Of a DNA stretch of 64,000 nt, positions 45,642-55,268 are shown piece by piece (position 1 is the stretch's first letter; each line of letters begins with the position of its first letter). The translations under genes and the position numbers were made by a program. The stretch is taken from NCBI RefSeq assembly GCF_900403705.1, contig NZ_OUNR01000001.1, positions 124,001-188,000 on the forward strand, read 5' to 3'. This stretch comes from Nitrospira lenta. Lineage in GTDB: Bacteria; Nitrospirota; Nitrospiria; Nitrospirales; Nitrospiraceae. Below the pieces are notes generated by a model. The model searched no databases. It was not told the DNA's origin and saw nothing but the letters and a program-made list of their open reading frames with translations.

Positions 45642-46262
45642 ATGCGAGTCATCGTCATCGGCGCCACGGGAACCATCGGGTCTGCCGTCGTCGCAGCACT
45701 GTCCGCACACCATGACGTCGTGGCCGTGGGGCATCAGCAGGGTCCACATCGGGTGGACCTCACAGCAACGGAATCCATCACTCAATTGTTTCACACGGTG
45801 GGGCGGTTCGATGCCCTCGTGTGCGCCGCGGGCCGGGCTGCGTTCGGAACCTTGGACGATCTGACGGATGCGGATTTTCAGCTCGGGCTATCCAACAAAC
45901 TGATGGGGCAAGTTAACCTGGTACGCATCGGCCGGCCATTCGCGAACGACCGCGCCTCGTTCACCCTCACCAGCGGCGTGTTGAGCAGAGAACCCATGAA
46001 GGGAAGCGCGTCGATCAGCATGGTCAACGCAGGACTCGAAGGCTTTGCGCGCGCCGCCGCGCTGGAGCTTCCCCGCGGGATGCGCATCAACATCGTCAGC
46101 CCGCCCTGGGTGGCCGAGACCTTGATCGCGAGAAAAATGGATCCGTCCATCGGCCTACCCGCCGCCACCGTCGCCAAGGCCTATCTCGCCGGCGTCGAAG
46201 GCACCATGACAGGACTCACGATCGATCCGCGCAATCATGCGGGGAACACGGGAGGAACATAG
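45642..46262 (+). CDS. Short-chain dehydrogenase family protein
   Basis: A 206-residue compact SDR with GATGTIG (about 7-13) and VCAAG, but the active-site Tyr is replaced: SMVNAGLEGFARAAALELPRG shows the Ser-x-x-Asn pattern instead of YxxxK. It may be an atypical reductase or NAD(P)-binding protein. CAGGAGGG precedes the ATG. Divergent from the Tet-like gene. Close relatives are often annotated as short-chain dehydrogenases of unknown substrate. Confidence 0.88.
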   Translation: MRVIVIGATGTIGSAVVAALSAHHDVVAVGHQQGPHRVDLTATESITQLFHTVGRFDALVCAAGRAAFGTLDDLTDADFQLGLSNKLMGQVNLVRIGRPFANDRASFTLTSGVLSREPMKGSASISMVNAGLEGFARAAALELPRGMRINIVSPPWVAETLIARKMDPSIGLPAATVAKAYLAGVEGTMTGLTIDPRNHAGNTGGT

Positions 46263-46301
46263 GGAGCCCTGAACGAACACGCACCGGCTACCGGCTGCTT
46301 C

Positions 46302-46862
46302 TCAATGGCTCGTATCGGATCCGATATCGATCTCAACCCCGATCGATTCGGGGACGATGAAATCGTAATTCGGATCGAAGTCTCTGGAGGACTCCCTATC
46401 GATCGAGTCTATTCCCCAATGCCTGGCATAGAGTAATCGAAGCACCGGCTCGTGCCCCAGCTTGACCTTGCCGGTCACACGCCCGGCCAGGCTCATTCTG
46501 GCCCAGTCGCGATAACCCGCAGGAAGTTGCGCCTTCGTAATTTGCACCCAAAAATGACCGGCTTCGGGCCCATCGGGATCGATCGGCCGACGAGGAACAT
46601 CGTCTTCGTCCAGTGGACGGTTTTTCATTCTCAACCACACATATCGCTCACCCGACTCTTCCTCTACAGGAGTCCCTCCCATCAACACGACCTTCCCGAG
46701 ATAGGCCTCAGGGTGAGCCGTCAGCGCCGTCAGGGTGACGTCAGGCTCAGCCATACGTACGTATTCGCGAGGCATATTCCCACAGCCTGCGAGCAAGACG
46801 ATCAGGCCGATCGCACATCCGACCGGTCTGACCCTTTGAAAAAAACGAGCAGATACAATCAT
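46302..46862 (-). CDS. Slp-family outer-membrane lipoprotein
   Basis: A 186-residue protein with lipobox LLAGC (Cys27) and the Slp-like pattern LGKVVLMGGTPVEEESGERYVWL and LAGRVTG. Slp lipoproteins are induced by carbon starvation or acid. ATG 46862 lies 8 nt after AAGGA; the ATG three codons earlier is not better placed. Convergent with the SDR gene. Confidence 0.88.
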   Translation of the reverse strand: MIVSARFFQRVRPVGCAIGLIVLLAGCGNMPREYVRMAEPDVTLTALTAHPEAYLGKVVLMGGTPVEEESGERYVWLRMKNRPLDEDDVPRRPIDPDGPEAGHFWVQITKAQLPAGYRDWARMSLAGRVTGKVKLGHEPVLRLLYARHWGIDSIDRESSRDFDPNYDFIVPESIGVEIDIGSDTSH

Positions 46863-47123
46863 CGGAAGCATCCTTGGTTATCGATGGACCAGGCGGCCCT
46901 TAATCGCATCCGCGCGGTCGACCATCGGAAATACGACCGGCCCTCAGGCCACATTGAACGGCACCGTGCCGGAAAGGACAGTCCCATATTCATGAACCGG
47001 AATCAAGCTGCCGCACCTGCCGCTCATACTCGACCGACTGCGCGCGGATCCTGAGTTGTCACCATATGCCCCACACCTATGTTATTCTGTGCACCATCTG
47101 CCTTATCCAGGAGGGACACCACG

Positions 47124-48200
47124 ATGCAGACCAAACTGACGTCAGCAGGACTTATCGGAATACTCGGGTTGATCAGTGCCACGGCGCTCTCGTCGTTTGT
47201 CCAATCGAGTCAGGCCTCACCGTCCGGCCATGCCCCGCACGGAATCGTCACCATCGACGGCGTGACCGTACCGGATATCGGACCGCTGCCGACCGCAACC
47301 CCAACCCCGTCTACAAATTTAAATTACGCGGCCAAAATCGAGTTAGGGAAGCAACTCTACTTCGACGGCCGCCTGTCGAAAAACAACGCGATCTCCTGCG
47401 CCTTTTGCCACAATCCAGGAACCGGATTCGCCGACCCGCGACAGACCTCCATCGGGATCGACGGCGGCGTGGGCGGGCGCCAGTCACCGACGGTCTACAA
47501 CACCGCCTTCAACCACCTTCAGTTCTGGGATGGCCGAGCCCGCTCGCTGGAAGAACAGGCGATCGGTCCGATCCACAATCCAATCGAGATGGGCGAGACC
47601 CATGAGAACGTGGTCCGCAAGCTCGGCAAGATCAAAGGCTATCAGCAACAGTTCCGGGCTGTTTTTGGAACAGATGTGAATCTCCAGGATCTGGCCAACG
47701 CGATCGCCGCCTATGAGCGGACCATCATCTCAACGAATTCAGCGTTCGACAAATATGCGCTGGGCGACCCAAAAGCTATGGATGAGTCGGCGGTACGAGG
47801 CCTGACCCTCTTCAAAGGAAAAGCGCGCTGCATCCTCTGCCATAGCGGTTCGAACTTTACGGACAACCAGTTCCACAATCTGGGCGTGCCGCAAGTCGGT
47901 CCGGCCAAAGAAGACCTGGGACGGCACGACGTGACACGGGCGGAGAGGGACAAAGGCGCCTTCAAGACCCCGACCTTGCGAAGTATCACGGAGACCGCGC
48001 CGTACATGCACGACGGCGCATTCAAGACGCTTGAAGAGGTTGTGGATTTTCTGAACGAGGGAGGCGGGGCTAACCAGAACCTGAGCGCCTTCGTGAAACC
48101 GCTCAATCTGACATCAGAAGAAAAGACCGACCTCGTGGCCTTCCTCAAAGCACTGACGGGAGAACCCGTTAAGTTCCAGATGCCCAAGCTGCCGAAGTAG
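47124..48200 (+). CDS. Exported di-haem cytochrome c peroxidase (CCP/MauG family)
   Basis: A 358-residue protein with a signal peptide (about 1-31) and two CxxCH sites (CAFCH, Cys92-His96; CILCH, Cys236-His240). Blocks RQSPTVYNTAFNHLQFWDGRA and FKTPTLRSITETAPYMHDG are typical. It reduces H2O2 in the periplasm using electrons from small cytochromes. CAGGAGGG precedes the ATG at 47124. The cytochrome c gene converging on it could be the donor. Confidence 0.95.
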   Translation: MQTKLTSAGLIGILGLISATALSSFVQSSQASPSGHAPHGIVTIDGVTVPDIGPLPTATPTPSTNLNYAAKIELGKQLYFDGRLSKNNAISCAFCHNPGTGFADPRQTSIGIDGGVGGRQSPTVYNTAFNHLQFWDGRARSLEEQAIGPIHNPIEMGETHENVVRKLGKIKGYQQQFRAVFGTDVNLQDLANAIAAYERTIISTNSAFDKYALGDPKAMDESAVRGLTLFKGKARCILCHSGSNFTDNQFHNLGVPQVGPAKEDLGRHDVTRAERDKGAFKTPTLRSITETAPYMHDGAFKTLEEVVDFLNEGGGANQNLSAFVKPLNLTSEEKTDLVAFLKALTGEPVKFQMPKLPK

Positions 48201-48223
48201 TGTGTCCCCTGGGCTACTCCGAC

Positions 48224-48252
48224 GTGACGCGAGGCCGAACGCCTCGCGTCAC
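48224..48252. terminator. Bidirectional 12-bp hairpin between peroxidase and cytochrome genes
   Basis: GTGACGCGAGGC (48224-48235), loop CGAAC, GCCTCGCGTCAC (48241-48252), fully paired. It overlaps the last codon and stop of the minus-strand cytochrome gene (stop at 48249-48251). No long U-tract. Confidence 0.7.
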
Positions 48253-48611
48253 TTCATGAGCGTGCGTATATACACCAGCACATCCCGGATCTGACTATCC
48301 GAAAGTTGGCCTTTCCACGCCGGCATGTTCGGCTTACCGTTGTGGATCGTCTTCAGCAGTTCGGCATCAGATTTCTTGCTGGTCGACAGCGACGTGAGAT
48401 TCGCCGGATCGGGCCCCAAGAGCCGATAGCCGTCTCCCCCGCCGGCAGCCCCGTGACAACCGGCGCATTTTCTGACAAACAGCGTCTTGCCGCGCACCGC
48501 ATCGCCGCGGGGAACCTCGGAAGCGGGTTGCCCCAGGACGATCCCGCCATAGAGAAGACCGCTCACGCAGGTTGCCAGCACGACCCCACCGCGCCATCTT
48601 GCTGTCATCAT
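48249..48611 (-). CDS. Exported mono-haem cytochrome c
   Basis: A 120-residue protein with a signal peptide (about 1-27), one CxxCH (CAGCH, Cys49-His53) and Met in PNMPAWKG as likely sixth ligand. Same general type as the cytochrome at 23386. GAGGAGG precedes ATG 48611. It converges on the di-haem peroxidase and may supply it with electrons. Confidence 0.92.
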   Translation of the reverse strand: MMTARWRGGVVLATCVSGLLYGGIVLGQPASEVPRGDAVRGKTLFVRKCAGCHGAAGGGDGYRLLGPDPANLTSLSTSKKSDAELLKTIHNGKPNMPAWKGQLSDSQIRDVLVYIRTLMK

Positions 48612-48705
48612 CGCACCTCCTCACGCCAGGTCCGCTTGATGGTCACACTTCAGAAGGGGGAAATAAAACTGACATGCCAATCCGTCACGGCCACGGATGA
48701 TTCTG

Positions 48706-49125
48706 TTAGAACGGAATGCGGAGGCCCAGCTGAAACTCATTCGGCGAGAGCCCTTGCCCGAACTGGCTACGCAACCCGACGTCAGATTGCACGGGAGGAG
48801 GACCGATCAATGACCGATTCAAATCCGATGTATACCCGCCGCCGAATCCCGCCCCGAGGTACGGCATGATCGTGCGTCCACCCACTGAATAGTGCCCGCT
48901 GATCGACGGAATATCTCGAAAGATCGACGAAGACGGAGAGTACTGCGACAACGAGGCCGGCGCATCGAACGGCCCTTCGGACCCCACGCCTCCCCGGGAA
49001 AACTGCTCGTTCAACGACTGCAACGCAGGTGAGTCGACTACGGGAAAATCCTCCGCTGCAGAGGCCCCGACAGAAACGGCCAGCAACGTGAAGACCACCA
49101 CTGCGATGCGGAGACGAAGATTCAT
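48706..49125 (-). CDS. Exported protein, unknown function
   Basis: A 139-residue protein with a signal peptide (about 1-23, ASAAED). The mature part is Ser/Gly/Pro-rich: the N-terminal half is low-complexity, and MPYLGAGFGGGYTSDLNRSL with FQLGLRIPF at the end looks like two to three outer-membrane beta-strands ending in an aromatic residue. It could be a short outer-membrane protein, but it is too small for a full barrel. Confidence 0.68.
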   Translation of the reverse strand: MNLRLRIAVVVFTLLAVSVGASAAEDFPVVDSPALQSLNEQFSRGGVGSEGPFDAPASLSQYSPSSSIFRDIPSISGHYSVGGRTIMPYLGAGFGGGYTSDLNRSLIGPPPVQSDVGLRSQFGQGLSPNEFQLGLRIPF

Positions 49126-49474
49126 AGAGAGATCATACAAACGAAATTGTCTTCACACAAGTCCGATCCGACATGGCATGCGGGCGCTTCCCGCTACGGC
49201 TCGGGAAGGTCCATGAGACGCGGCAACAACGGCACCTTCGAATCACCACGCGCGGAGCAGGCCTTCAGCCATTTCCCCGCGCACGTCCGCGCCTTCTCCT
49301 GATAGAGCGGCATCCCGCCGTCATGGCCTTCACGCGCGCACCCATCACCAGGATCCCGCCGTCTTGCATCCTAGGCTTATCCCAGTCTATCTTCTGCCTG
49401 GCGCGCCCATACCGGTCTCGGCGGCGCGGCCATAGCATCCGGCGATCACTTCCTATGGCAGCTGGCAAACGACT
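49126..49474. other. Intergenic region; a doubtful 39-codon minus-strand ORF
   Basis: About 350 bp between divergent genes. A minus-strand frame 49194-49313 reads MPLYQEKARTCAGKWLKACS and onward with Cys residues. It looks faintly protein-like and could be a small gene or a remnant. Support is too weak to call it. Confidence 0.4.
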
Positions 49475-50959
49475 ATGGGCGTAGCGTTGATTCTGAGCCT
49501 GATTACCGGCGGACTGCTTGTGTATCTCGGCACCGTCCGTAAAAAACCCGCCGGGCTGGGGTTCTATGTTGGTTGCCTCTCCACGATCGTACTCGTACTT
49601 CTGCTCGAGCTCATCACACAGGGATTGATCCCGCACATCCCGCATTGGATACGGCCATGGGCGGCATTCCTGGCCTATCTGGCGATGTCCTTCGTTCTCT
49701 TGAAAACCCTCGATCTCCTGTTCATCGAAGACTACCTCATCGAGAAGCGAGGGAAATATATCCCCCGAACCCTCCGCCTGATCTTCCTGCTCTTTGGAGT
49801 TACCCTGGCGGCCCTCATTCTGCTCCGGTCAGTTCTCGACGTGGATCCGCTCACATTGATCGCGCTCCCGACCATCGCCACAGCCGTGGTCGGGTTCGCG
49901 CTCAAAGACGTCATCGCGCGACTGGTCTCGGGCATCCAACTCGGCCGCATGATCCACGTCGGCGACTGGGTGACCTTGATGGACAAAGAGGGGATGGTCA
50001 CCGACATCGCTTTCGATTACATCACGATCCGAACCCGCGCCTATGACTACATTATGCTGCCCAACGATGCCGTCTCCCAAACCACCATCACCAACCATAG
50101 CCGGCCCGAAAGCCTGTGCGCCCGCGCCATCCACGTCGATGCGAACTATGGCCATCCCCCTATGCAGGTGAAAGACATCCTCGTGCAATCCGCATTAGCG
50201 GTTCCTGGCGTCGTGGCCTCCCCCGCGCCGATCTGCTTCGTCGAAGAACTGAAGGAATCGGGCATCGGCTACCAGCTCAAATTTTTCTTCCATGACTACG
50301 AACGCTGTGAACGCCTTGCGGGTGAAGTGATGGCCTATGTCTGGTATGCCTTCGAGCGGAATGATATCGATATTCCCTATCCCCAACGGGTCTTGCACAT
50401 GACCCAGCCCCCTGATCTGACCGCGCTGCGGGCCGCCGAACTGGCCGGCTTCGAGGAACAGTTCCGGGCCATCGATTTCTTAGCAATACTCGACGCAAAG
50501 GCCCTCCACTCGCTGGCGGAACAGGCGCACAAACGCGTCTACCTGCCCGGCGAACAAGTCGTGCGGGAAGGCGAATCGGGAGATGAATTCTTCGTGGTCG
50601 TGGAGGGCGAGGCTGACGTAGCGATCAAGACAGGTGATCACACGACGTCGGTTGCCGTGCTCAAGAAAGGGCAGTTCTTCGGCGAAATGTCCCTGCTCAC
50701 CGGAGCTCCGCGTTCCGCCACCGTCCAAGCGACATCTCAGCTGACCGTCACGGTCATCGGCCAGCAGGCCATGCGCCAGATCATCTCCGCGACCCCTGCC
50801 CTGGCAGAACAAATCGGCACAATCCTCACGGCACGGCAATCATCACTGACGGCCACGCGCGAAACCGCCGATCGTACCGTCACGCGGAGGTCCGCCACAG
50901 AGGAGGGACAGTCGCTCACCGTGAAGATCCTCCAATTCTTCCGCCGATCCGGGAACTGA
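49475..50959 (+). CDS. MscS-family channel with C-terminal cyclic-nucleotide-binding domain
   Basis: A 494-residue protein. It has four membrane segments (about 5-125), an MscS pore/beta domain (VVGFALKDVIARLVSGIQLGR, MLPNDAVSQTTITNHS), the MscS C-terminal domain, then a cNMP-binding domain (about 340-465) with the phosphate cassette FFGEMSLLTGAPRSATV. Such bCNG-type channels are gated by cAMP or cGMP more than by tension. The cassette Arg and Glu are intact. It stands directly upstream of a broken CHASE2 gene. Confidence 0.94.
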   Translation: MGVALILSLITGGLLVYLGTVRKKPAGLGFYVGCLSTIVLVLLLELITQGLIPHIPHWIRPWAAFLAYLAMSFVLLKTLDLLFIEDYLIEKRGKYIPRTLRLIFLLFGVTLAALILLRSVLDVDPLTLIALPTIATAVVGFALKDVIARLVSGIQLGRMIHVGDWVTLMDKEGMVTDIAFDYITIRTRAYDYIMLPNDAVSQTTITNHSRPESLCARAIHVDANYGHPPMQVKDILVQSALAVPGVVASPAPICFVEELKESGIGYQLKFFFHDYERCERLAGEVMAYVWYAFERNDIDIPYPQRVLHMTQPPDLTALRAAELAGFEEQFRAIDFLAILDAKALHSLAEQAHKRVYLPGEQVVREGESGDEFFVVVEGEADVAIKTGDHTTSVAVLKKGQFFGEMSLLTGAPRSATVQATSQLTVTVIGQQAMRQIISATPALAEQIGTILTARQSSLTATRETADRTVTRRSATEEGQSLTVKILQFFRRSGN

Positions 50960-50998
50960 TCCCCGACCGCCTCCTGTCATCGCCGGTGGAGCCGTACG

Positions 50999-51450
50999 AT
51001 GCAAGCCGCCACGCGATACCGCAAAATCATCTCTGTGACACTGGTAGGAGGAGCAGTATGGCTTCTCGCCGTGGCCCTACACTGGTCGGGCTGGCTCACC
51101 ATCACAGAACTCAAGACACTCGACCATCGGTTCCAGCGGTATGCAGATTCCACCAAAGCCGGAAACGACATCGTACTGGTTGCGGTGGATGAGGCCAGCC
51201 TGGAATCCTACGGCCAGTGAGTGGCCCTGGTCCCGTGAACGACACGGGTATGTCGTCCACTACTTAAAAGAACCCGGCGCCAAAGCCGTGGTCTTTGATC
51301 TCCTATTTCTCGAACCGGATCGGTTGGGGGAGGAGTTTGATGCGGTCGTCGCCGAAGAGATGCGAGCCGCTTGAAACGTCTATCTGCCCTTCCTGATGCA
51401 GAACGAGGAGGAGCCCTCCGGCGGCTCAACTGCTTCTCCTGGCGGTGCGC
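50999..51450 (+). pseudogene. Decayed CHASE2-domain sensor gene
   Basis: Frame 1 (50999-51220) encodes a membrane helix, then LKTLDHRFQRYADS, GNDIVLVAVDEASLESYG and stops. A frameshift leads to frame 2: WPWSRERHGYVVHYL, GAKAVVFDLLFLEPDR, DAVVAEEMRAA. A TGA at 51372-51374 then breaks NVYLPF, and similarity fades by about 51450. CHASE2 is an extracytoplasmic sensor domain usually fused to adenylate/guanylate cyclases, kinases or GGDEF domains. The catalytic part is gone. Confidence 0.8.
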
Positions 51451-51611
51451 ACGAGCATCCGGCGGACATCTTGAAAAATCCACGATCGCGCGCGACTCAC
51501 CATTCCGGCTACCTCACATTCGGCTGTCGCCGCCCCAGCCTGGCAGCCACTCCCCCGCATTGACCATCAGCCTGGCGCTTCCTATACTGCAAAAAGATTG
51601 GAGAGACGCTT

Positions 51612-54176
51612 GTGAAAATTATCGTCAGCCTGGCGGTCGGATTCGTGCTCCTCCTCGGCGTGATCCTCGCGCTGCCGTTTCTCATCGACCTGAACCAGTA
51701 TCAGGACCGGTACAAACCGCTGATCGAAGAGGCGCTGAATCGCAAGGTCCAGCTCCAAGACATCCGCCTGACGATCTGGCCCCGCCTCGGCGCCCGTATC
51801 AGCGGGGCAGTCATCCTTGACGATCCGGCCTTCAGTGCCGGGCCCTTTGTCTCGCTGACGTCGTTGGACGTTGGGGTGAAACTCCTGCCCCTCTTGAGTC
51901 AGCAGGTGGAAGTCGAGGAGATCTCTCTGCGTGATCCGGTCGTCACGGTCATCACCAACAAAGACGGCGTGATGAATGTCTCGACCATCGGGGCCAAGAC
52001 CTCGACCTCATCCCCAGCAGAGCCTGGCCAGGTTCCGGATTCCGGCGGAAATCCATTACAACTCTTGGCCGTATTCGCGGTTGATCGTGTGTCGATCGAA
52101 GGTGGACGGCTGACCTATCGCGATCTTTCGACGGCGCCGGTCACGGAATACCAGGCGCAGGACGTCGAACTCTTGCTGAAGTCCGTCCGTCTCGGACAAT
52201 CGCCTTCAATCCACCTCAAGACCACAGTCCTGCCCTACAATCTTCCCGTCACGCTGGACGGCGGGTTCGGCCCGCTGGTTGAAACACTCGAAGTGCAGCA
52301 GTACGATTTCGCGCTGGGATTCGGCAAGATCGCGCTCGCCGTGAAGGGAGCTCTCGCCGGAGGCAACTTGGATGCGACCCTGTCCGCGCCCGCCATCAAC
52401 ACGGCCGATCTCCCCATCACCCTGCCGCTGCAAAAGCCGGTACAGATCAAGGATCTGCTGGTGACCGCCAAAGCGCCGTACCCGCTTAAGCAGGGTGTGT
52501 CGCCGCTGGAGTTGGCGGACATCTCGAATCTGAGCCTGGCCCTCGTCATGGGCGATTCCTCTGTACAGGTCAAAGGGACCGTCCTCAACGGCCAGGCGAA
52601 TGTGACGCTCTCATCCCCTTCACTCAACACCGCTGATCTGCCGGTCGCCGTCCCGCTGACCAAACCGGTGGAACTCAAGGATTTGTCCGTCACGGCCAAG
52701 ACACGTGTGCCGTTCATACCGACGGCACCCCCATTGGAAATGGCCGATGTCTCCGACCTGCGTGTCGCCGTCGCGCTGGGCCAATCGCTGATCCATGTGA
52801 AAGGCACGGTCCTCAACGGCCAAGCCGCCCTGACCGTATCCTCGCCATCGGTAAATACCGCAGACCTGCCGATTGCTCTGCCGCTGACCAAGCCGATGGA
52901 GTTGAAGGATCTTACCGTCACCGCCAGCACACGCAAGCCCTTCAATCCCGCTGCGCCGCCCTTGGATATTGCCGATGTCTCCGACTTACGTGTCGCGGTC
53001 GCGCTGGGTCAGTCGCTCGTACACCTCAAAGGGACTGTCCTCAATGGTCAGGCCAATGTGACGCTCACGTCCCCGTCCATGAATACCGCCGACATGCCGG
53101 TCTCCATCCCGCTGACCAAGCCGGTGGAGTTGAAGGATCTCACCGTCATCGCCAAAACCCGCAAGCCCTTCAATCCCGCTGCGCCGCCCTTGGACATGGC
53201 CGATGTCTCCGACTTGCGCCTTGGTGTGATCCTGGGAAGATCTGTGCTGTCGGTCAAAGGCACCCTGCTGGCCGGCCAGGCGAATGTGACCCTCTCCTCG
53301 CCTTCGGTGCAGACCGGAGACCTGCCGGTCGAAACTGGACTCGCGAAATCCGTGGAACTCAGAAACCTGCTCGTGAATGCCAATCTCAAGGGGCCGAACG
53401 CGCGTCTCTCCAACGCGTCCTTTCAATTGTTCGACGGCCAGTTCAAAGCAGAGGGAGAGCTGTCGACAGGCTCACAGGCTCCGCCGTTTCGCGGCAAGAT
53501 CAAGATCGACGGCCTGCAACTCGGCCCCGCGCTGGCGGCCATTAGTCCGAACAGCACGGTCTCCATGAGCGGGACGGCGGCGATGGACCTGGCCGTGACG
53601 GGGCGCGGCTTCACCATGCCGGACCTGACCAAGTCCTTAGAAGGACCAGGACATCTGCGGATCAAGAACGGGAAGATCGAAGGGATCAACCTCATGGAGG
53701 AGGCCTCCGCACTCTTGAAGGTCGCCGGCCTCTCACCCGATCGCCTCAAAGCAACGGCCTTCTCGGCGATCGAAACCGATGTCATGATCAAGCAGGGACT
53801 CGTCACGGTGCAGAAACTGCTGATGGACAGCCACGATTTTCAAGCCACCGGCGCCGGCACTGTCGGATTCGACCAGACGCTCAACCTGGCCGTGAACCTG
53901 CATCTCACCCCCGCCCTCAGCCAGAAACTGGCGGCGTCCTCACCCATTGTCAGAATCGCGCTGAAGGACGGGCGGCTCAGGCTCCCCTTCCAAATCGCCG
54001 GCACCCTCCAGGCTCCCGCCTACGGGTTAGATACAAAAGAGCTGACGGGAAAAGTCCAAGAGCAGGTGAAAGAACAGTTGAACGAGGCGGTCAAAGGCCT
54101 CCTGGAAGACACGACGAATCCCAAAGACCTTCAACAACAAGGCAAAGACCTACTGAAGGGGCTGCTCGGCCGGTAA
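51612..54176 (+). CDS. AsmA-family protein with internal 76-residue repeats
   Basis: An 854-residue protein. The N-terminal helix (about 1-25) and DLNQYQDRYKPLIEEALNRKVQL with WPRLGARISGAVILDDPAFSAGPFVSL are the AsmA N-terminal signature. A beta-rich body follows, then the AsmA C-terminal domain (FDGQFKAEGELSTGS, about 700-790) with a final helical tail. AsmA/TamB-like proteins span the periplasm and move lipids. Four tandem repeats of about 76 residues (266-570) expand the beta body. The GTG at 51612 has GGAGAG upstream. It is the largest complete gene here. Confidence 0.9.
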   Translation: MKIIVSLAVGFVLLLGVILALPFLIDLNQYQDRYKPLIEEALNRKVQLQDIRLTIWPRLGARISGAVILDDPAFSAGPFVSLTSLDVGVKLLPLLSQQVEVEEISLRDPVVTVITNKDGVMNVSTIGAKTSTSSPAEPGQVPDSGGNPLQLLAVFAVDRVSIEGGRLTYRDLSTAPVTEYQAQDVELLLKSVRLGQSPSIHLKTTVLPYNLPVTLDGGFGPLVETLEVQQYDFALGFGKIALAVKGALAGGNLDATLSAPAINTADLPITLPLQKPVQIKDLLVTAKAPYPLKQGVSPLELADISNLSLALVMGDSSVQVKGTVLNGQANVTLSSPSLNTADLPVAVPLTKPVELKDLSVTAKTRVPFIPTAPPLEMADVSDLRVAVALGQSLIHVKGTVLNGQAALTVSSPSVNTADLPIALPLTKPMELKDLTVTASTRKPFNPAAPPLDIADVSDLRVAVALGQSLVHLKGTVLNGQANVTLTSPSMNTADMPVSIPLTKPVELKDLTVIAKTRKPFNPAAPPLDMADVSDLRLGVILGRSVLSVKGTLLAGQANVTLSSPSVQTGDLPVETGLAKSVELRNLLVNANLKGPNARLSNASFQLFDGQFKAEGELSTGSQAPPFRGKIKIDGLQLGPALAAISPNSTVSMSGTAAMDLAVTGRGFTMPDLTKSLEGPGHLRIKNGKIEGINLMEEASALLKVAGLSPDRLKATAFSAIETDVMIKQGLVTVQKLLMDSHDFQATGAGTVGFDQTLNLAVNLHLTPALSQKLAASSPIVRIALKDGRLRLPFQIAGTLQAPAYGLDTKELTGKVQEQVKEQLNEAVKGLLEDTTNPKDLQQQGKDLLKGLLGR
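52410..53321 (+). repeat. Four 228-bp in-frame repeats inside the AsmA gene
   Basis: Units at 52410-52637, 52638-52865, 52866-53093 and 53094-53321 each encode LPVAxPLTKPVELKDLxVTA, PPLxMADVSDLRVAVxLG and VKGTVLNGQANVTLSSPS. The middle units are closest to each other, suggesting recent expansion. Each unit would add a fixed number of strands to the periplasmic groove, so protein length could vary between strains. Confidence 0.9.
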
Positions 54177-54177
54177 G

Positions 54178-54912
54178 CTACGGCAGGATGATGGCGTGCT
54201 CGGCATATCCGATGGATTTGAGCGTCGCTTCGATTCCATCGACCATCGGCGGCGGGCCGCACAGAAAGATGACCGTCTCGGCGCCGGGCGGCGGGAGATG
54301 CCCGCGCAGCGCCGCCTCGTCGATACGGCCGACGCCTTGGGTCCAACCCGCGGGCGGATTGCTCAAGACATGATAGCAATGAAAGTTCGCATGGACGCGG
54401 ACCTGCGCATCCCATTCTTCGCGGAAGATAATGTCAGCCTCCGCCTTGTTCGCATACAGCAAGAACAATTCGACGTTCAGGTTCCTGGCAAGAATCCCCC
54501 GAATGATCGCAATCATCGGCGTGATGCCAGAGCCGCCGGCCACGAAACCGACTTGCGTCGCCATCCCGTCCACCCAATGGCCGCCTGTAACTGGCCCGCT
54601 CATTAGGACGGTTTCACCGATCTGCCGGTCATGGAGATAGCGTGACACCGTGCCAGTCTCATAGCGCTTGACCGTCAGGTCGAAGTGACCCGTGGCGCCG
54701 GGCAGCGACGACGGCGTGTAGGGCCGTTTCGCCGGCTTGCCGCCGAGCGTCGCGTGGACATAGAGATGATCGCCGGGCAACATGTCCAGCGTAGCGTGTT
54801 CTGGCAGAGCAAAACGAAACGTCTTGGTATCGTGGGTCTCGCGATGAATTGCCATGAGCTCATACGGCACCGGAGTCTTCGACTTGATGCGTGTCACTGA
54901 TGCCATATTCAT
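54178..54912 (-). CDS. FAD/NAD(P)-dependent ferredoxin/cytochrome-b5 reductase-type oxidoreductase
   Basis: A 244-residue flavoprotein reductase: FAD-binding RPYTPSS (about 65-71) and GTVSRYLHD, NAD(P)-binding GGSGITPMIAIIR and the terminal CGPPPMVDGI. It transfers electrons between NAD(P)H and a carrier via FAD. ATG 54912 has GGAAGGCG upstream. It lies 53 nt after a small exported protein on the same strand. Partner unknown; nearby cytochromes and iron-sulfur proteins are possible. Confidence 0.92.
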   Translation of the reverse strand: MNMASVTRIKSKTPVPYELMAIHRETHDTKTFRFALPEHATLDMLPGDHLYVHATLGGKPAKRPYTPSSLPGATGHFDLTVKRYETGTVSRYLHDRQIGETVLMSGPVTGGHWVDGMATQVGFVAGGSGITPMIAIIRGILARNLNVELFLLYANKAEADIIFREEWDAQVRVHANFHCYHVLSNPPAGWTQGVGRIDEAALRGHLPPPGAETVIFLCGPPPMVDGIEATLKSIGYAEHAIILP

Positions 54913-54965
54913 AACGTCGCCTTCCGAGTCTGAATGGATCCATCGAAATGAAACGCCAGGCAACC

Positions 54966-55268
54966 TCAGCGGCCGCCGGCATCGGGGACTTGTACGCTGA
55001 TTGAAATCGCGCGCCGATCCTCACCGACCTGCGCCAAGATCTTATCGCCGGTCTTCAGCCGGCCGGCTACCACACCGTCGATTTTGGTGGCCGGAGTCAC
55101 CACGAGGCGGATCTCGTGGCCGGAGATTTCCTTCACAATGAGTTCGTTCCCCTCCCAATACATTACATCCGCTTTGATGGCGGCGGGTGCGGTCGATGCG
55201 GCCCCCTCAAGAGCAAATGCGGGAACGACTGCAACGAAGACAAGATAGAGTGCGAGAAACAGTGCCAT
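54966..55268 (-). CDS. Small exported protein of unknown function
   Basis: A 100-residue protein with a signal peptide (about 1-22) and a small beta-rich mature domain with VKEISGHEIRLVVTPATKID and LKTGDKILAQV. This DGxV/TGDKI pattern resembles the protein at 42066, so both may be OB-like. GGGAGGTGTGGTG precedes the ATG at 55268. In operon with the reductase at 54178. Confidence 0.72.
   Translation of the reverse strand: MALFLALYLVFVAVVPAFALEGAASTAPAAIKADVMYWEGNELIVKEISGHEIRLVVTPATKIDGVVAGRLKTGDKILAQVGEDRRAISISVQVPDAGGR

Follow-up and report, generated by a model that had tools for sequence, protein, structure and literature searches.

bCNG channels are MscS-type channels that carry a cyclic-nucleotide-binding domain (CNBD) at their C-terminal end. 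Mechanosensitive behaviour has been reported for these channels, and Ss-bCNGa gates on tension, as far as the titles of two studies cited in PMC4560390 convey (Caldwell 2010; Malcolm 2012). A second described arrangement is that of the Pycsar systems, for which the available portion of PMC11224242 describes how the nucleotide is chosen: residues Y50, D94 and R97 of BcPycC select UTP, an Asn of PycTIR occupies the uracil-selecting position, the substitution N143S renders PsPycTIR insensitive to cUMP, and the adenine-reading Ser128 of CRP is placed at that same Asn position. In the open-licence literature, as judged by titles and the first lines of abstracts, we found no study that describes a CHASE2 cyclase as the partner of an MscS-CNBD channel.

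Nitrospira lenta is a nitrite oxidiser, and the locus described here lies in a stretch of 64,000 nucleotides of its genome, the whole of which stretch is hereafter called the window. Its relevant features are the following:

49475-50959, forward strand: predicted cyclic-nucleotide-gated MscS-type channel, an open frame of 494 aa (Pfam MS_channel_2nd, MS_channel_3rd and cNMP_binding; orthologues 73-84% identical; fold matches to MscS and CNB domains)
50999-51496, forward strand: pseudogene of a CHASE2-class III nucleotidyl cyclase, reduced to its N-terminal fifth with the CHASE2 part (residues 1-157 of the 723 of the G022 protein)
51216-51223, forward strand: frame-shifting 4-base tandem repeat (first frame closed by the TGA at 51218-51220)
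51372-51374, forward strand: nonsense codon TGA in the second CHASE2 frame (a substitution relative to G032)
51496-51497, no strand: deletion junction, at which about 3.1 kb present in G032 is missing (the rest of the cyclase, the SH3 gene and the M48 peptidase gene), placed by homology to G032
51612-54176, forward strand: AsmA-like gene, 854 aa, the first gene past the deletion (PF05170, E 3.5e-36)

The channel joins the beta and C-terminal domains of MscS (PF00924, E 1.8e-11; PF21082, E 4.9e-5) to a C-terminal CNBD at residues 354-438 (PF00027, E 1.6e-20), and its phosphate-binding cassette, FFGEMSLLTGAPRSATV, is identical in all nine aligned channels, that of N. lenta included. An earlier sequence-only reading of this DNA had taken the gene for an intact channel with a cNMP-binding domain, and the open frame of 494 aa with both kinds of domain bears this out. 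The AlphaFold2 model of the protein has a mean pLDDT of 73.5 and a pTM of 0.35, so that the arrangement of its parts is not trustworthy. In a fold search with this low-confidence model, MscS structures came first by E-value (1.5e-15), with a poor whole-chain superposition for the leading MscS chains (target-normalised TM of 0.43 at most, rmsd of about 18-19), and single CNB domains fitted well (5kjy, TM 0.82 and rmsd 2.1; 5l0n, TM 0.86 and rmsd 1.4; likewise target-normalised).

The remains of a CHASE2 gene start at 50999, 39 bp past the channel stop codon. Scored frame by frame, PF05226 gives 26.8 bits to 50999-51217 and 34.9 bits to 51141-51371 against a cut-off of 26.3; in a search of the whole genome the second piece alone stays above the cut-off (36.1 bits, with 25.2 for the first), and jointly the pieces are incomplete, since they cover profile positions 3-91 of 257. 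A tblastn search with the undamaged protein of G022 places residues 1-73 at 50999-51217 and residues 73-157 at 51219-51479, in two frames and with an E-value of 2.6e-67, which shows that the match is not a chance one. The frameshift formerly proposed near 51215 is explained by the 4-base repeat found there, and the TGA formerly noted at 51372 does close the second CHASE2 frame. Near 51474, inside an A run, there is a one-base difference that could be a sequencing error. Beyond about 51496, homology to the G032 locus skips about 3.1 kb and resumes just before the AsmA-like gene; the effector, previously described as gone, has thus been physically deleted, and the catalytic cyclase domain with it. 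Of the span 50999-51450 first given to this remnant, the start is right and the end falls about 46 bases short. Homologues of the SH3 and M48 genes found in relatives have no match within the window.

The channel was sought in 59 relatives, in 79 genomes of the genus (N. lenta included) and in GTDB contigs (the best 80 of 295 relatives). Nine distinct loci hold the pair (G022, G025, G029, G032, G065, G076, G093, L082 and L083); L080 and L081, whose DNA is common with G065 and G076, were not counted apart, and L084 was taken as G032. In all nine, an intact cyclase frame of 723-725 aa lies 39-40 bp past the channel, and the row of genes reads channel, cyclase, SH3 homologue and M48 peptidase homologue, which upholds the earlier proposal that the N. 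lenta channel has lost a dedicated cyclase. Four of the nine cyclases, together with one SH3 and one M48 protein, were scanned with Pfam; the four cyclase genes at the orthologous place all carry CHASE2 and Guanylate_cyc, with TPR_2 below the cut-off in three, whereas the window copy is a part corresponding to residues 1-157, without the catalytic domain. The SH3-domain and M48 peptidase homologues (10656-12147 of L036 and the equivalent places elsewhere) follow the cyclase in the nine relatives and were lost together with it in N. lenta. An AsmA-like gene comes downstream of the M48 gene in six of the nine (G022, G029, G032, G065, G076 and G093), and the DNA fetched for G025, L082 and L083 does not include one.

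Within the genus, nine of the 79 genomes have the channel at an E-value of 1e-60 or better, namely N. lenta, seven with 77-84% identity, among which the G032 match is split in two, and G096 with a partial match of 36%. Channel orthologues of at least 77% identity are therefore present in eight genomes, and a cyclase orthologue of at least 86% occurs in exactly the seven besides N. lenta: with the G022 cyclase as query, orthologues of 86-100% appear in those seven channel genomes, together with a homologue of 33% identity in G095. Of those seven, five also have a second CHASE2-cyclase (a frame of 693 aa), for which G022, G076 and N. lenta have no match at 1e-60. In protein searches the G032 channel seems to have an internal deletion, but this was ruled out, as residues 142 and 328 flank a stretch of N that is a scaffold gap (L037, G032:C8). 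Farther away, channels of 41-45% identity from another family of the order (L038-L042, five loci) have no match to the CHASE2 cyclase in the 4.4-15.7 kb fetched around them, nor do channels of 31-37% identity (L085-L087) in their fetched flanks, so that, on sequence comparison, the channel-cyclase unit seems confined to one Nitrospira clade. At six loci that matched through the CNBD only (L089, L090, L098, L100, L109 and L129), cyclase homologues occur within the fetched stretch.

The nine cyclases conserve D472, K512, D516, T586, N593 and R597 (G022 numbering), which we take to be the metal, substrate and transition-state residues of class III enzymes, K512 and T586 presumably being the pair of the adenylate type. 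From this K/T pair, the CHASE2 cyclase of the relatives is predicted to make cAMP, and probably does so. In G022, a genome in one contig, the operon cyclase is the sole PF00211 match.

The N. lenta assembly (3,756,190 bases in 22 contigs, rated 99.98% complete) was searched with class III, class I and CYTH cyclase models. The class III model PF00211 has no match at E 0.001 nor at E 10, the CYTH and class I models have none either, and the only cyclase found in the genome is the PycC of a Pycsar pair described below, which escapes PF00211, so that Pfam alone would report no nucleotidyl cyclase in this genome. There is a second CHASE2 gene in N. lenta (7647-10265 of L043, about 507.6-510.3 kb of G000:C1), fused to a sigma-54 activator and not to a cyclase; many genomes of the genus have CHASE2 matches with frames of about that length. 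N. lenta is not alone in lacking class III cyclases, since PF00211 is also absent from six of 34 other genomes of the same genus (G008, G009, G013, G014, G020 and G028), none of which has the channel at 1e-60. Among the eight channel-bearing genomes of the genus, N. lenta is the sole one without a PF00211 cyclase. The N. lenta case is unusual in that the receptor channel is kept in a genome with no detected class III cyclase, and in that the sole cyclase found there is a defence enzyme.

We consider it highly likely that N. lenta holds a cAMP-gated MscS-type channel orphaned by the recent decay of its operon. In the relatives the unit is a tight row of four genes, presumably transcribed together, which encode a cNMP-gated MscS-type channel, a CHASE2 cyclase predicted to be an adenylate cyclase, a protein with an SH3 domain and an M48 peptidase. 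The CHASE2 domain would sense something outside the cytoplasm, the cyclase would then make cAMP at the membrane, and cAMP would bind the C-terminal domain of the channel and alter its gating; both the pairing with cAMP and the gating by it are predictions. In N. lenta the cyclase has been inactivated and a deletion has removed it along with the two genes behind it; the channel, which heads the row, has outlived this deletion with its open frame and its phosphate-binding cassette intact. Since the models for class III, class I and CYTH cyclases detect none in the genome, the channel appears to be an orphan, most likely tension-gated or silent, deprived of its cAMP input, perhaps already of its function, and heading for decay.

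Substitution patterns were compared by three-taxon NG86 estimates of dN/dS, with bootstraps of 1000 replicates. For the channel, the N. lenta branch has values of 0.22-0.24 against 0.08-0.14 in the sister branches, and in two bootstraps it was not the higher one in 2.0% and 0.5% of replicates. The AsmA-like gene shows no clear difference (0.17-0.21 against 0.12-0.19; not higher in 45.6% and 23.5%). As for the other neighbours, the N. lenta branch is lower than its sisters in the MauG gene and the gene at 48706, lower or equal in the gene at 54178 and mixed in the gene at 45642. With no consistent rise in these four neighbouring genes, the rise in the channel, for which there are just two formal bootstraps, is not a general one. 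Counting replacements at sites that do not vary among the remaining eight gives 27 for the N. lenta channel and 0-19 for every other one; the N. lenta branch is a long one, however, 20 residues are absent from L083, and two of the aligned rows are near-identical. The raised dN/dS fits a simple loss of use equally well as reliance on another nucleotide source.

For the CHASE2 remnant, dN/dS is 0.14-0.24 against 0.07-0.35 in the sisters (139 codons, with wide intervals of 0.09-0.74 and 0.06-0.35 and uneven dS). Such little excess makes the loss of the cyclase look recent, and the open frame of the channel accordingly says little about its present use. Along positions 46000-55000 of the window, dS on the N. 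lenta branch is about 0.2 in the AsmA-like gene, 0.3 in the channel and 0.4 in the MauG gene, a spread of about twofold that suggests recombination at the locus and makes dating unsafe.

A different reading is that the channel never needed cAMP, being a tension-gated MscS-type channel with a CNBD that is structural or serves another ligand, and with the cyclase as a mere neighbour. The tension gating reported for bCNG channels would agree with it, as would the persistence of the CNBD in N. lenta after the loss of the cyclase and the more distant channels that have no such cyclase beside them. We regard it as unlikely, however, because the cassette is invariant in the nine aligned channels, channel and cyclase occur together in all seven other genomes, and the single lineage without the cyclase is the one in which the channel has a higher dN/dS.

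The channel could also still work on the product of another cyclase, the PycC of N. lenta (a uridylate cyclase of the Pycsar phage defence), in which case phage infection would open it too. This enzyme belongs to the following genes:

7964-9619 of L192 (G000:C18), reverse strand: Pycsar pair, PycC and PycTIR (PycC, PDLC00766, E 1.9e-96; PycTIR, PDLC02371, E 2.3e-93)
8681-9619 of L192, reverse strand: PycTIR (CNBD-TIR), with PycC as the next gene
7110-7841 of L192: AbiGi-like gene beside the Pycsar pair

PDLC00766 finds matches at E 0.001 or better in 58 of the 79 genus genomes, and N. lenta has the sole strong one (E 1.7e-95, the next being 4.4e-15); many of the weak matches are ordinary class III cyclases, among them the operon cyclase (E 1.3e-14 in G022 and G076). 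The same general homology is seen with other PADLOC models, PDLC00734 matching the CHASE2 cyclase of the relatives (E 2e-27) and PDLC00731 the channel CNBD (E 1.3e-13). Pycsar as such is not unique to N. lenta within the genus, as G010 (G010:C2, 1318-2613 of L202, reverse strand) encodes a PycC that belongs to a different clade (PDLC00763, E 7.7e-108; weak under PDLC00766, E 5.9e-14) beside a PycTM-type 2TM protein (PDLC02364, E 3.3e-21); one more frame lies at 567-1328 of L202.

In its favour, this second reading has the presence of PycC beside PycTIR in the same genome, the conservation in PycC of the three UTP-selecting residues named above for BcPycC, as judged by alignment, and a match of the channel CNBD to the PycTIR models (PDLC02371, E 5.3e-13). 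That match, however, is one of general CNBD homology, as the channel resembles ordinary cAMP and cGMP kinase domains more closely (E 1.1e-26). The contig that carries PycC, C18, is not that of the channel, and a single genome gives no statistics. At the uracil-selecting position, an Asn in PycTIR according to the available portion of PMC11224242, the channel, in a by-eye alignment, has Thr in N. lenta, while its relatives have Ala in seven of eight and Thr in one. Furthermore, the constraint on the channel is relaxed and not renewed, and the channel itself offers no pointer to the product of PycC, all of which makes this reading very unlikely.

That the breaks are assembly errors in a 454-sequenced draft of an organism with an intact cyclase is hardly credible: Roche GS FLX sequencing and a list of 0 pseudogenes (in the available part of PMC6251164) speak for it, as does the single-base difference near 51474, typical of 454 errors in an A run, but a frame shifted by a 4-base repeat, a stop codon due to substitution and the absence of about 3.1 kb, which takes in two more genes, between clean flanking homology are not typical assembly errors, and no PF00211 match turns up elsewhere in a genome of such completeness.

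N. lenta has six genes for cyclic-nucleotide-binding proteins, and the canonical G-E...R cassette, judged by eye, is kept solely by the channel and the CNBD-TIR protein. In the C-helix of its CNBD, the N. lenta PycTIR has Ser at the place of Asn143 in 8jsk, a PDB chain with numbering that agrees with PsPycTIR; all eight aligned plasmid PycTIRs (8 of 24 records found) have Asn there. By this alignment, the N. lenta protein may read another nucleotide or be impaired. N. lenta thus combines the sole strong PDLC00766 PycC of the 79 genomes, the absence of PF00211 and the Ser in PycTIR, and these facts bear on a possible link between the loss of the cAMP cyclase and the presence of Pycsar, to which we give barely any chance. 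If a suicide effector responded to cAMP, cAMP synthesis by the host would become dangerous and loss of the cyclase would be selected for, a step that we hold to be just as remote, and there is equally scant prospect that the channel was left orphaned, or captured as a second effector, in this way. Pycsar as such does not exclude PF00211 cyclases, since G010 has Pycsar with a PycTM effector and yet two such cyclases. If the link were true, it would mean that a host can be barred from using a second messenger by a defence system.

The clade provides a natural paired comparison, with the same channel beside a cyclase at nine loci and without one in a single species, which is reported as isolated in the available part of PMC6251164. 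With it one could examine whether a dedicated cyclase controls MscS-type channels that carry a CNBD, and the common order of channel, cyclase, SH3 and M48 genes hints at a role in the cell envelope.

Compared with bCNG channels, the N. lenta channel is alike in having an MscS core followed by a CNBD with the canonical phosphate-binding cassette, whereas this clade differs in the cyclase gene set 39-40 bp downstream of the channel and lost in N. lenta, and its gating by a nucleotide is a prediction. Pycsar resembles the pair of the relatives in that a cyclic mononucleotide made by a cyclase would be read by a CNBD effector, but no PycC lies beside the N. lenta channel, whose neighbour is the CHASE2 remnant, and this is not a Pycsar locus. 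We are dealing with ordinary gene decay by deletion inside a known kind of signalling pair, and the N. lenta locus, where nature has deleted one half of a small signalling unit, does not represent a system of a new kind.
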